DNA from: Arthrobacter zhaoxinii
Lineage (GTDB): Bacteria > Actinomycetota > Actinomycetes > Actinomycetales > Micrococcaceae
Assembly (NCBI RefSeq): GCF_024385505.1
Contig: NZ_JANFLT010000002.1
Location: forward strand, 558,001-622,000
Direction of reading: 5' to 3'
Length of the DNA stretch: 64,000 bases
Positions 54,110-57,919 of the stretch are shown piece after piece. The notes beneath the pieces are model-generated. The model saw nothing but the letters and a program-made list of their open reading frames with translations. It did not search any database and had not been told where the DNA came from. Position 1 is the first letter of the stretch, and each line of letters begins with the position of its first letter. A program made the translations under genes and the position numbers.

Positions 54110-54943
54110 TCAGGTCCATTTCCTCACCGCCCGTTTCTCCGCGATGCCCAGCAGGGCATCCGTGGCCTTACCGATGACGGCCAGGGTGATGATGGCCAGG
54201 AACATCCGGTCCGTCCGTCCATTGTTCTGCGAATCCGTCAACAGGAACCCCAGTCCCATGGAGGAGGCGATCAGTTCGGCCGCGACCAGGAACAGCCAGG
54301 ACTGGGCCAGGGCGAGCCGGAGCCCGGAGAAGACGGCCGGCACCACGGCCGGCAGCTGCACGGTGGTCAGCAGCTTCATCCCGCGCAGACCGAAGGCCCG
54401 GGCAGCCTCCACCAGATTGCGGTCCACATGCCGCAGGGCCAGGGCCACCGTGGTGAAGACGGGGAAGAACGCACCGATGGCGATCAGCGTGATTTTGGAG
54501 TCTTCACCGATCTTCATCCACAGGATCAGCAGCGGCACCCAGGCCAGGGACGGAACCGCCCGCAGCGCTCCGATGGCCGGTCCCAGCAAGGCATCGGCCA
54601 GCCGGGACAGGCCCAGCAGGGCGCCCAGGACCAGGCCCAGCGCGGAGCCGATGACGAAACCGGCCAGTACCCGCTGGGTGGAGATGGCAATGTGGGTGCC
54701 CAGTTGGCCGCGCTGCGCCAGGTCCGCCGCGGCGTCGTAAACCGCACCGGGAGGCGGGAGCTGGATGGCGCTGAAGATCCCGGCGGCGGCGGCGAGCTGC
54801 CAGGCCCCAAGCAGTGTGAGGGGAACCAGAAGACCCAGGCCGAGCCGGAAAAACCGGTTGTTCACGCTGAAGCCGGCCTTCGGGGCAGGATGTGCGAGAA
54901 CCGAGGCGTCCTGCTCAGAAGTATGGAGGGAGGGAGTGCTCAT
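54110..54943 (-). CDS. ssuC: ABC transporter permease, sulfonate/taurine type
   Basis: A 277-residue membrane protein with six helices. It carries the ABC-permease EAA-like loop (ARAFGLRGMKLLTTVQLPAVVPAVFSGLRLALAQSW) that docks with the ATPase, and belongs to the BPD inner-membrane group SsuC/TauC. The cytosolic N-terminus lies ahead of LGLLVPLTLLGAWQLAAAAG. Its ATG overlaps the TGA of the binding-protein gene (4 bp). It is the last gene of the ssuB-ssuA-ssuC unit, which starts behind a SAM-type leader. The ssu name is based on family and order, not on proved substrate. Confidence 0.85.
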   Translation of the reverse strand: MSTPSLHTSEQDASVLAHPAPKAGFSVNNRFFRLGLGLLVPLTLLGAWQLAAAAGIFSAIQLPPPGAVYDAAADLAQRGQLGTHIAISTQRVLAGFVIGSALGLVLGALLGLSRLADALLGPAIGALRAVPSLAWVPLLILWMKIGEDSKITLIAIGAFFPVFTTVALALRHVDRNLVEAARAFGLRGMKLLTTVQLPAVVPAVFSGLRLALAQSWLFLVAAELIASSMGLGFLLTDSQNNGRTDRMFLAIITLAVIGKATDALLGIAEKRAVRKWT

Positions 54944-55989
54944 GCTCCCGCGTCCTCTGCATTCCTGACGTAGGAGTCGTCCAGCAGGCTGTCGAGGGCC
55001 TCGTCAATCTGCTCCTGGCTGGCCACGTCTCCGGTCTCCACCAGGGTGGGACCGATCTTCGCCAGGACGCTGCGCTGCGCCTCGCCGGGGGCGGGGTCCA
55101 CGTCCAGGTTGCTGCGCTCCGCGATCACTGTCTTGGCGACGGCGGGGTCCAGTCCGGCGACGTCGGCGAGGATCTGGGCGGTGTCGTCCGGATTGGCTGC
55201 AGCCCAGGCGCGGGCCTTTTCGTACGCATTGACTACTGCCTGCGCCTGCTCGGGATCTTCTGACAGGAAGGATTCGTTGGCGGCCAGGAGGCCGTAGGTG
55301 TTGAAGTCCAGGTTGCGGTAGGCCAGCCGGGCACCGTACTGTTCGGCGTCGGCCATGATCGGGTCCAGCCCGGCCCAGGCATCCACGGAACCGTTCTCGA
55401 GGGCGGTCCGGCCGTCCGCGTGCTGCAGCTGTTCCACGGTGACATCGGAAAGGCTCAGTCCGGCTTCATCCAGGGCCTGGACCAGGAAGAAGTACGGATC
55501 CGTGCCCTTGGTTGCGGCCACCGACTTGCCCGCAAGATCTGCCACCGATTCGATCCCGGAATCGGCGCCGACCACCAGGGCCGACCATTCGGGCTGGGAG
55601 AACACATCGATGGCCTTGATCGGTGAGCCGTTGGCCCGGTTGAGCAGTGCGGCGGAACCCGCGGTGGAGCCGACGTCGATGGCGCCGGACCGCAGGTTTT
55701 CATTGGCCTTGTTGGAGCCGGCGGACTGGACCCATTCCACTGTGACGCCGTCAGCGGCCAGCTCTTCCTCCAGCCAGCCCTGGTCCTTGATGATGAGGCT
55801 CAACGGGTTATAGGTGGCGAAGTCGAGCGTCAGGGTTCCGCCGTCGGCCTCCTGGACCGCGGAGGCCTCGGTGGGATCCTCCCCGGCAACGCAGCCGGCG
55901 AGGGCTAGGCCGGCCACAGCGGCGACGGCGGCAAAAGTGCTGCGGGGCTTGCGGGGCTGGGAATGAGGCTGGAACGAACGGCTGTTCAT
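54940..55989 (-). CDS. ssuA: ABC transporter substrate-binding lipoprotein, sulfonate type
   Basis: A 349-residue extracytoplasmic lipoprotein. The lipobox is LALAGC near residue 32 after a basic N-terminus. The binding domain resembles SsuA/TauA (NMT1-like): TLDFATYNPLSLIIKDQGWLEEELAADGVTVEWVQSAGSN, VGSTAGSAALLNRANGSPIKAIDVF, and LAGKSVAATKGTDPYFFLVQALDEAGLSLSDVTVEQLQHADGRTALENGSVDAWAGLDP. It binds alkanesulfonates or taurine in relatives. It is separated from ssuB by 110 bp without clear structure. Confidence 0.88.
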   Translation of the reverse strand: MNSRSFQPHSQPRKPRSTFAAVAAVAGLALAGCVAGEDPTEASAVQEADGGTLTLDFATYNPLSLIIKDQGWLEEELAADGVTVEWVQSAGSNKANENLRSGAIDVGSTAGSAALLNRANGSPIKAIDVFSQPEWSALVVGADSGIESVADLAGKSVAATKGTDPYFFLVQALDEAGLSLSDVTVEQLQHADGRTALENGSVDAWAGLDPIMADAEQYGARLAYRNLDFNTYGLLAANESFLSEDPEQAQAVVNAYEKARAWAAANPDDTAQILADVAGLDPAVAKTVIAERSNLDVDPAPGEAQRSVLAKIGPTLVETGDVASQEQIDEALDSLLDDSYVRNAEDAGA

Positions 55990-56099: not shown

Positions 56100-56924
56100 C
56101 TAGTGGCGCTCGACGCCGAGCAGGGCGAGGAGGTCGCCGCGCATTCGGGCCAGCTCCGCCGAGGCGCGGTCCCGCGGGCGGCGGCCTGGAACGGTGACGA
56201 CCTCGGTGATGGTGGCACCGGGGGTGCCGTCCTCCCCGCCGAGGACAATGATGCGGTCCGCCAGCTGCAGGGCCTCATCCACGTCATGGGTGACCAGCAG
56301 AACGGTGGCGGGCGCCGCCCGGTGCAGGGAAAGCAATAGGTCCTGCATCTTGAGCCGCGTCAGCGCATCCAGGGCGCCGAAGGGTTCATCCAGCAGCAGG
56401 ACACCCGGTTCCCGCGCGAGTGCCCGGGCAAGGGAGGTCCGCTGGGCCATGCCTCCGGACACGGCCCGCGGCCGGTGCTTGGCAAAGGCTGCGAGCCCCA
56501 CCAGATCCAGGAGCTCGGCAACCTTGGCCTTTCCCCGGCTGGCGCTCGCGGACTTCGGCAACCCGATGGCTATGTTGGCCTGCAGGGTCTGCCACGGCAG
56601 CAGCCGGGGTTCCTGGAAGGCAACGGCACAGCGGTCATCGATGCCGGACACCGGTTTGCCGTCAATCAGGATGTTTCCGGCGGTGGGAAGGTCCAATCCG
56701 GCAGCGGCCCGCAGCAAGGTGGATTTGCCGCAGCCGCTCGCACCCAGGATGGCCAGCACCTCGCCTGGACGGATGTCGAAGGTGATGTCCCGAAGGACTA
56801 CGTGTTCGTCCGGACCGGAACCGAAACTCCGGCCGAGCCCGGCGAATTGAACAGGCAGGGCAGCACCCGGGCGTGCCGTGCCGGAACCGGGTGAGGACGT
56901 GGAAGAAGGCAGGACTGCAGTCAT
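56100..56924 (-). CDS. ssuB: ABC transporter ATP-binding protein, sulfonate type
   Basis: A 274-residue ATPase. Walker A is LGASGCGKSTLLRAAAGLD (about residues 65-83), the Q-loop CAVAFQEPRLLPW, the signature MAQRTSLARALA (an ABC-signature variant GGMAQR) and Walker B VLLLDEPFGALDALTR with TVLLVTHDVDEALQ. It powers import with SsuC and SsuA. It is the first gene of the unit. Its ATG is 10 nt from the last base pair of a SAM-I-type RNA fold whose P1 strand runs into the Shine-Dalgarno GGAGAG. Confidence 0.9.
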   Translation of the reverse strand: MTAVLPSSTSSPGSGTARPGAALPVQFAGLGRSFGSGPDEHVVLRDITFDIRPGEVLAILGASGCGKSTLLRAAAGLDLPTAGNILIDGKPVSGIDDRCAVAFQEPRLLPWQTLQANIAIGLPKSASASRGKAKVAELLDLVGLAAFAKHRPRAVSGGMAQRTSLARALAREPGVLLLDEPFGALDALTRLKMQDLLLSLHRAAPATVLLVTHDVDEALQLADRIIVLGGEDGTPGATITEVVTVPGRRPRDRASAELARMRGDLLALLGVERH

Positions 56925-56930
56925 AGAAAA

Positions 56931-57093
56931 CTCTCCATCGATCCTGGCAGTAGCACCCTACGGAAGGTGTCCTGAGCCGGGGTAACGGCTTCCTGCGACA
57001 CCAGCCTCGTTATTGCCGCACCTCAAGGAGGAAATGCGGCAACCAGGGTTGCTGCGGCTTCATCGATCCAGGTCTCTCAGCCGCTCGGGATGG
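56931..57093 (-). promoter_or_regulatory. SAM-I-superfamily riboswitch (S-box-like) in the ssu leader, no P4 seen
   Basis: Minus-strand fold: P1 CCATC (57089-57093) with GATGG (56935-56939). P2 is GCGGC with GCCGC, enclosing GAGAGACCTGG. Its loop CCTGG (57068-57072) is complementary to CCAGG in J3/4 (56943-56947), the S-box pseudoknot. After AGCAACC, P3 ACCCT pairs with AGGGT, next to the conserved GGTGCTA. P3 carries two extra hairpins (TTGCCGCA/TGCGGCAA and GGTGTC/GACACC). The last P1 bases join the Shine-Dalgarno GGAGAG (56931-56936), so ligand binding would block translation. The canonical P4 hairpin is missing, as in SAM-IV-like members. Subclass is uncertain. Confidence 0.75.
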
Positions 57094-57102
57094 TCAGGCA
57101 CT

Positions 57103-57131
57103 ACTAAACCCCGGAAGAGCAGCTCCAACAA
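57103..57131 (-). promoter_or_regulatory. promoter of the ssu operon
   Basis: Minus-strand TTGTTG, 17-nt spacer, TTTAGT. Expected transcription start near 57096 puts the first base pair of the riboswitch at the 5' end of the message. Confidence 0.55.
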
Positions 57132-57208
57132 GGCCTTCACGTAATATTTCGACGCCGGACCGTTCGCCGTCCGGTTAGCTCCGGAGCCTCTGCATTCGGG
57201 GATGTCCG

Positions 57209-57238
57209 TTGACCCCCGCGGCGGGGCACTTCTAACCT
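57209..57238 (+). promoter_or_regulatory. promoter of the short hydrolase-fold gene
   Basis: TTGACC, 18-nt spacer, TAACCT, about 66 nt before the ATG at 57305. The 57132-57208 stretch between the divergent promoters holds only a small CCGGAC/GTCCGG hairpin. Confidence 0.45.
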
Positions 57239-57304
57239 GCCTTAAGGGCCTTGTGATGTCGGGTCCGGCCGGTTTCATCGATCACACCGATTTGAGGGGT
57301 TGCT

Positions 57305-57919
57305 ATGGCCGCCATGTCCGCATCAGGGAAGGCGATATCCGCCGATGGAACACCCATCGCGTGGTCCCGGCAGGGCAGCGGCCCGCCGCTGGCAATCGTG
57401 GGCCCGCTGCTGGCGCACCGCAGCAGCCCTGCGACGGTGGTGCTCGCGGACGCCCTGGCGCAGAACCACACCGTCTACACCTATGACCGGAGAGGGATCG
57501 GTGAAAGCGGGATGGGCGAGGAATATACGGCGGAATCCGATGTGGATGACCTGCTGGCGGTCCTTCAGGTCGTCGGCGGATCGACGGACCTTTACGGCTT
57601 CGACGAAGGGGCGTTCCTGGCGCTGAGGGCAGCGGAGGAATCCACGGTGGTCAGCCGGGTGGTGGCCCTGGAACCCACCCTTTCCCTCGCCGACGGCGAG
57701 GACGAACTGATGGTCCTGCAGAGCGAGATCGAGGGCTTGGCCGGGGTTCGCATTCCGGTGCTGGTCATGGCGGGGAGCAGCAGCGGTGACGACACTCAAG
57801 ACCTGGCGCGGCAGACCGCCGACGCCCTGGAAACCGGTGAGTTCCTGCTGGTGGAATCGGATACCCGCGGCATTCCGGATGCGGCGCTGACGGATGCCAT
57901 CGAGTCTTTCCTGGCCTAG
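57305..57919 (+). CDS. short alpha/beta hydrolase-fold protein with Asp in the nucleophile elbow
   Basis: A 204-residue protein of the hydrolase fold without a lid domain. It has LAIVGPLLAHRSSP in place of the usual HG oxyanion motif, YTYDRRGIGESGMG, and the elbow LYGFDEGAFLAL, with Asp (residue ~99) instead of Ser. It then has PVLVMAGSSSGDDTQ and LLVESDTRGIPDAAL, where the usual catalytic His motif would end the fold. An Asp nucleophile occurs in dehalogenases and epoxide hydrolases, but the missing His speaks against that. GAGGGG precedes the ATG. It is divergent from the ssu operon. Confidence 0.8.
   Translation: MAAMSASGKAISADGTPIAWSRQGSGPPLAIVGPLLAHRSSPATVVLADALAQNHTVYTYDRRGIGESGMGEEYTAESDVDDLLAVLQVVGGSTDLYGFDEGAFLALRAAEESTVVSRVVALEPTLSLADGEDELMVLQSEIEGLAGVRIPVLVMAGSSSGDDTQDLARQTADALETGEFLLVESDTRGIPDAALTDAIESFLA

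Follow-up and report, generated by a model that had tools for sequence, protein, structure and literature searches.

On the minus strand of the window (the whole 64,000-nucleotide stretch of Arthrobacter zhaoxinii DNA analysed here), a leader sits between a divergent ORF at 57305 and the start codon of an ssuB-like gene, directly upstream of an operon with the order ssuB-ssuA-ssuC. The predicted products, an ATPase, a sulfonate-binding protein and a permease, agree with the first-pass annotation, which had described a sulfur-scavenging ABC operon. The genes are called ssuB and ssuC on the strength of the operon, because the sulfonate- or nitrate-type matches of the ATPase and the permease fall below the model cut-offs.

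56100-56924, minus strand: ssuB-like ABC transporter ATPase (ATG 56922-56924; best NCBIfam matches to nitrate and aliphatic-sulfonate ATPases, under cut-offs)
54940-55989, minus strand: ssuA-like sulfonate-binding protein (TIGR01728, 213.2 bits, cut-off 163.5)
54110-54943, minus strand: ssuC-like permease (SsuC model 182.5 bits, under cut-off; PF00528 over cut-off)

The leader itself divides into the following parts, given with the basis of each assignment.

57126-57131, minus strand: -35-like hexamer TTGTTG (direct sequence; TTG recurs in the 28-leader alignment)
57103-57108, minus strand: -10-like hexamer TTTAGT, 17 nt after the -35-like hexamer (direct sequence)
57089-57093, minus strand: P1 5' strand CCATC, partner 56935-56939
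57054-57084, minus strand: P2 arm with P2a, kink-turn G.A positions, P2b and P2 loop (Rfam model alignment)
57080-57084 with 57054-57058, minus strand: P2a (compensatory changes over 111 elements)
57068-57072, minus strand: P2-loop pseudoknot strand CCTGG, partner 56943-56947
57046-57053, minus strand: P3 5' strand AGCAACCC (RF00162 alignment and covariation)
57047-57053, minus strand: AGCAACC motif (direct sequence)
57013-57042, minus strand: P3a hairpin, stem 57032-57042 with 57013-57023, apical loop 57024-57031 (covariation)
57025-57030, minus strand: P3a-loop CTCCTT, candidate kissing partner of the P3b internal loop (complementarity)
56962-57006, minus strand: P3b arm, 57005-57006 with 56962-56963 and 56997-57002 with 56966-56971 (covariation)
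56991-56996, minus strand: P3b internal-loop strand GCAGGA, candidate kissing partner of the P3a loop (complementarity)
56987-56990 with 56975-56978, minus strand: distal stem P3c, in the P3b arm (one two-sided pair, genus)
56952-56958, minus strand: P3 3' strand GGGTGCT (RF00162 alignment and covariation)
56951-56957, minus strand: GGTGCTA motif (direct sequence)
56943-56947, minus strand: J3/4 pseudoknot strand CCAGG, followed by P1 without P4
56935-56939, minus strand: P1 3' strand GATGG, overlapping the Shine-Dalgarno (direct sequence)
56931-56936, minus strand: Shine-Dalgarno GGAGAG (direct sequence)
57061-57069 and 56936-56944, minus strand: copies of GGATCGATG (direct sequence)

Class membership of the leader element

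A search of positions 56700-57400 (701 bases) with all Rfam families returned a single meaningful match, the SAM-I model RF00162 at 56932-57096 on the minus strand (42.9 bits, E 2.1e-8), and the alignment runs from 57096 to 56932 over model positions 1-108, the full model length. The gathering cut-off of this model is 44.4 bits, which the element misses by 1.5 bits, and a gathering-threshold Rfam scan of the window lists three tRNAs only, without the leader element. RF00162 matches nothing else in its genome up to E 1. The relatives also score mostly under the cut-off: all 20 Arthrobacter leaders scored, out of 28 and with our own included, lie below 44.4 bits (38.9-43.8), and the forked elements of other genera span 33.7-44.4 bits (n=13; 2 at 44.4, 11 lower).

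The full-length alignment contains the SAM-I core, with P1, P2 and P3, the conserved GCAAC-C and GGUGC-A nucleotides, and a P2-loop/J3-4 pseudoknot of five pairs. The tandem G.A kink-turn of P2 is represented by one GA in columns 19-20 and another in columns 36-37 of the alignment, both unchanged across the 28 leaders; the motif positions come from PMC3764141 and were mapped by eye on the sequence alone. In the P4 region of the alignment, 1 base faces 17 model positions, and in P3, 77 bases stand opposite 5. There is no space for a P4 hairpin between J3/4 and P1, since CCAGG continues straight into ATCGATGG. CCTGG, CCAGG, AGCAACC, GGTGCTA and GGAGAG all lie on the minus strand in the S-box arrangement first annotated, with the end of P1 inside GGAGAG as had been claimed.

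Judged by sequence and covariation, the leader is a real, conserved SAM-I-type riboswitch variant, in line with the superfamily assignment made at first pass. The E value against RF00162, the occurrence of the leader in 28 of 29 Arthrobacter genomes (DNA search, with our own and one same-species genome included) and the covariation of its extra stems are more than chance would give. We consider it very probable that the element is a SAM-I (S-box) variant that has kept the core, lacks P4, carries a forked P3 and would act as a translational OFF switch responding to SAM. It resembles RF00162 in the core helices, the kink-turn positions, the pseudoknot, the conserved P3 nucleotides and the sulfur-metabolism gene downstream, and differs from it in the absent P4, the three-way junction in P3, an insert of 85-99 nt and a score just under the cut-off. 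The fold energy of the single leader sequence is modestly better than that of shuffles (z -1.87; 6 of 200 equally good). A functionless sequence resembling SAM-I through decay or coincidence would fit the sub-threshold score, but is scarcely credible in view of the conserved core, the covarying arms and the steady gene context over 64 distinct sequences.

Members of the SAM clan share a common binding core and vary in their outer helices. The leader might be a SAM-IV or SAM-I/IV riboswitch, classes that also differ from SAM-I in peripheral helices. SAM-IV shares the binding core and the lack of P4 (PMC6890682), and three SAM-IV elements over the cut-off occur elsewhere in the genome. However, SAM-IV has a P5 and a PK-2 formed with sequence 3' of P1 (PMC6890682), and in the leader P1 abuts the Shine-Dalgarno, leaving no space for either ahead of the start codon. 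RF00634 (SAM-IV) found nothing at the leader up to E 10 in a search of the genome in which 150 of 1305 first-look candidates were scored. RF01725 (SAM-I/IV), a class of the same superfamily, had no match anywhere in the genome up to E 10 (83 of 83 candidates scored); a SAM-I/IV variant is described in PMC2864571 as lacking the P2 internal loop. With RF00162 as the best clan match at the leader and the SAM-I kink-turn positions in place, assignment to either of the other classes is highly improbable; the comparison of the three models proposed at first pass thus favours SAM-I, below its cut-off.

Elsewhere in the genome, RF00634 gives nine matches up to E 10, and the three over the cut-off (L062, L063 and L064) score 121.4, 65.3 and 46.2 bits. 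By eye, the ORFs beside L062 and L063 resemble O-acetylhomoserine sulfhydrylase and MetE, respectively. In locus L054, positions 1734-1827 gave a sub-threshold score to a microRNA precursor model on both strands, and this is probably a mere long inverted repeat near the leader of that locus.

Absence of P4 and distribution of the forked elements

The missing P4 was presented at first pass as a departure from canonical SAM-I. The absence is confirmed, but it is no mark of this leader. SAM-I elements occur in 162 of 197 Micrococcaceae genomes at E <=0.01, and in 29 of the 30 best-scoring loci of the family there is no room for P4 between the J3/4 strand and P1; the exception, L020, has a hairpin at the P4 position. 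In an Actinomycetota-wide search, a P4-length interval was present in 27 of 27 loci inspected by eye (27 of the 30 best matches), a set that, consisting of the highest-scoring matches, is biased to the full RF00162 model. The absence of P4 is therefore common in the family. The novelty lies in a forked P3 whose stems covary, in its presence among related soil bacteria of Arthrobacter-like genera, in its association with ssuB and in scores that mostly fall under the threshold.

The distribution of the fork was followed with a model of the P3 insert (R1), which matched 42 of 395 Micrococcaceae genomes in five genera: 28 in Arthrobacter, 13 true matches in three other genera, and one (L113) that was dropped as it has no SAM-I core. 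A pattern scan of a genome-contig collection gave 59 stretches, 53 of them with a SAM-I core, and all 53 are titled Arthrobacter or Pseudarthrobacter, some being MAGs. The full forked-element pattern is present in 93 of 101 loci examined, corresponding to 64 distinct sequences as some genomes were fetched twice. A second model (R2), applied with strict filters through which weak matches are lost, gave 9 matches within the family and 3 weak ones outside it (E 0.002-0.009) over 396 Actinomycetales genomes, and only our own genome over 296 Actinomycetes genomes. The three R2 matches outside the family were rejected for want of a SAM-I core. Six contigs from the pattern scan (L126, L129, L150, L163, L165 and L171), all from Nitrospira or Nitrospiraceae, share one conserved sequence that fits the pattern without a SAM-I core.

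The family also has compact P4-less elements (29 of the loci L002-L031, together with L060 and L061). They share with the forked elements the core, the lack of P4 and, mostly, GATGGAG at the P1 3' strand, and differ from them in the P3 insert. Among 111 distinct P4-less SAM-I elements (L106, outside the 93-locus pattern set, is counted here), the insert measures either 12-39 nt (45 elements) or 85-99 nt (66). These size classes come from loci found by searches favouring a short P3 (best RF00162 matches) or a set length (pattern maximum 110 nt), and the gap between them may be a sampling effect.

An SsuB homologue lies directly downstream of 63 of the 66 distinct forked elements (70-100% identity), and four compact P4-less elements (L005, L007, L016 and L021) also precede ssuB homologues (60-67% identity). 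The fork may thus have arisen at the ssuB locus from a compact form. The three forked elements without a following SsuB homologue are L153 (3991-4161), L158 (4797-4962) and the second element of L169 (1377-1464). By eye, an ORF near them resembles an MFS transporter, ORFs after L153 and L158 resemble LLM-type flavin monooxygenases, and one after the L169 element resembles a substrate-binding protein. Four loci (L121, L146, L164 and L169) carry a second P4-less SAM-I element with a P3 insert of 36-39 nt, ~1.6-3.6 kb before the ssuB homologue; in L121 the gene downstream of it appears MetE-like by eye.

The forked P3 arm and its covariation

P3 forms a three-way junction with two arms, P3a and P3b, so that the two additional P3 hairpins annotated at first pass are present, and they covary. 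In the alignment of the 28 Arthrobacter leaders the insert holding them measures 85-90 nt. Within the genus, covariation was assessed with a hand-written structure over 23 distinct rows, and standard pairing occurs in 97.4% of cells. Two-sided changes affect 11 pairs and 74 cells (24.1 in shuffles, no more than 15 with slid partners); further pair types stay below the shuffles (20 vs 24.0). All 11 pairs fall within P3a (5), P3b (5) and P3c (1), and the core helices are invariant. Over the 64 distinct sequences, two-sided changes occur in each of P3a pairs 2-8 and P3b pairs 2, 4, 5 and 6, all of which beat 500 of 500 shuffles; P3b pair 3 equals the shuffle maximum and P3b position 7 pairs no more often than in shuffles, in a comparison that ignores relatedness and reads the strands from their ends, not from alignment columns. 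The first pair of each arm varies little or not at all, P3a pair 8 is formed in just 36 of 64 sequences, and several nucleotides of the fork junction are invariant or nearly so.

The first-pass annotation had expected its listed stems to covary across ssuB leaders; this holds for the extra stems, while the core stems are invariant there and covary once compact relatives are added. Core covariation depends on these relatives because P1 and the pseudoknot show zero variation among the 64 forked sequences, an invariance that is partly due to selection, as the 93-locus and 111-element patterns fix conserved letters, including most of P1. In P1, P2a, the pseudoknot and P3, every position is paired in 107-111 of the 111 P4-less elements, and each helix has compensatory changes, though few. 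P1 can pair in all 64 forked and all 111 P4-less elements, with one compensatory change. For the pseudoknot, annotated from the start as CCTGG/CCAGG, compensatory changes were found in the compact relatives (e.g., CTTGG/CCAAG).

The two arms could also touch each other. Of the 23 genus inserts, 22 have UCCU in the P3a loop, and 38 of the 40 others have CCC there (the loop of L154 was set by hand); the P3b internal loop contains AGGA in the genus and mostly GGG outside it. At least three contiguous Watson-Crick pairs between the loops are available in 61 of 63 distinct inserts, with only two in L042 and L102 under the loop definition applied. With their own partners the inserts average 3.89 pairs, compared with 3.27 when partners are shuffled without regard to relatedness (0 of 5000 shuffles as high), and for the 40 non-genus inserts alone the values are 3.55 and 3.40 (269 of 5000 as high); most of the signal stems from a single change separating the genus from the other inserts. 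These figures are suggestive of a candidate kissing contact of the two loops.

The same loop admits another reading, in which the forked P3 is a second regulatory domain. Its P3a loop CUCCUU could, for instance, make it an anti-Shine-Dalgarno arm, or the fork could offer a binding site to a protein or a further ligand. Within the genus, the CUCC of the P3a loop is complementary to the GGAG of the Shine-Dalgarno, and a junction nearly invariant at several nucleotides over 64 sequences would suit such a site. Outside the genus, however, the CCC of 38 of 40 loops misfits GGAG but matches the GGG in the internal loop of P3b, and we regard this reading as improbable. Most likely the fork extends the structure and would stabilize or tune the aptamer. 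That the forked P3 and its kissing contact form a distinct SAM-clan periphery, taking over the structural role of P4 or PK-2 and perhaps sensing a second signal at sulfonate-uptake operons, is conceivable but on the unlikely side.

Either way, the forked P3 adds peripheral architecture to the SAM clan, and the elements make up a coherent riboswitch set at sulfonate-uptake operons, mostly just under the Rfam cut-off. Since compact P4-less and forked elements both occur before ssuB, they offer a natural series in which the contributions of P4 and of the P3 extension can be compared. Among the matches listed in the open-licence literature, we found no publication that describes a forked P3 and none that treats SAM riboswitches at ssu operons of Arthrobacter.

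Translational control and the promoter region

The overlap between the P1 3' strand and the Shine-Dalgarno makes direct translational repression by SAM the simplest mechanism, and probably the one at work; there is a precedent for it in PMC2258182. A start-like codon follows GATGGAG by 5-8 nt in 92 of 93 loci (L042 and L157 being counted by a second ATG), GATGGAG itself being in all 93 because it was part of the selection pattern. No terminator-like site was found in 56850-57310. The met-operon riboswitch of Xanthomonas likewise combines a SAM-I aptamer with mainly translational control, but there a separate expression-platform hairpin hides the Shine-Dalgarno and the AUG, according to PMC7270179, whereas in the leader P1 itself would do so.

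Under the proposed mechanism, the transcript would begin close to the 5' edge of P1. In the absence of SAM, the 5-bp P1 would stay largely unpaired, leaving the Shine-Dalgarno at least partly accessible and allowing the transporter to be made. With SAM, the core would close and P1 would form, its 3' strand capturing the GG of the Shine-Dalgarno and blocking translation, and the P3 fork would brace the aptamer, perhaps through the kissing of the P3a loop with the P3b internal loop. In ligand-free, pseudoknot-free folding of the 64 sequences, the median probability of P1 is 0.002, and forcing P1 and P3 costs a median of 4.8 kcal/mol over the ensemble, which SAM binding could pay. The apo state is perhaps below full ON, because the predicted openness of the four Shine-Dalgarno bases has a median of just 33% over the 64 sequences, with 13% for the leader in the window, and holding the P1 3' strand open is predicted to cost a median of 3.3 kcal/mol.

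What the ligand-free RNA folds into bears on a further alternative, in which SAM would refold P3. In the apo state, CCUGG at 57043-57047 would pair with CCAGG at 56943-56947 and the P3 3' strand would make its own GUAG/CUAC hairpin; the SAM-bound state would have P3 and the pseudoknot. Both RNAalifold (28 leaders) and the minimum-energy fold give this pairing, excluding P3 and the pseudoknot, and the second CCUGG copy is kept in 27 of 28 genus leaders. However, nested folding programs cannot form the competing pseudoknot, the bases concerned are nearly all invariant and so allow no covariation support, and in L042 the alternative CCUGG pairing is broken and the remainder kept. The CCUGG/CCAGG fold may be what the RNA adopts without SAM, or pseudoknot-blind programs may produce it as an artefact, and we hold refolding of P3 to be possible, though doubtful; P1 capture of the Shine-Dalgarno is the preferred explanation. 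A different alternative pairing, offered at first pass through the repeated GGATCGATG, was rejected. Both copies exist, the 3' one at 56936-56944 and not at 56937-56945, but the 9-mers are identical in just 18 of 93 loci (11 of 64 distinct sequences) and so are not conserved.

The promoter annotated at first pass (TTGTTG-17-TTTAGT) is present as a sequence, and TTG with a TTTAGT-like hexamer recurs in the relatives, but a strict promoter scan listed no promoter, this pair included. In 41 of the 64 distinct leaders TTTAGT is no more than 24 nt from P1, and a -10-like hexamer, from a list compiled after the sequences were seen, occurs in 62 of 64. We infer a transcription start ~7 nt past TTTAGT, at the 5' edge of P1. 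Further upstream, the motif WTRTTACR (ATATTACG here, 57140-57147, minus strand) lies 51-75 nt before P1 in the relatives, with positions clustering at ~52, 61 and 64 nt. It occurs in 52 of 64 distinct leaders compared with 0.38 expected from single-base shuffles, the motif having been defined after seeing the sequences, and is possibly the site of a regulator.
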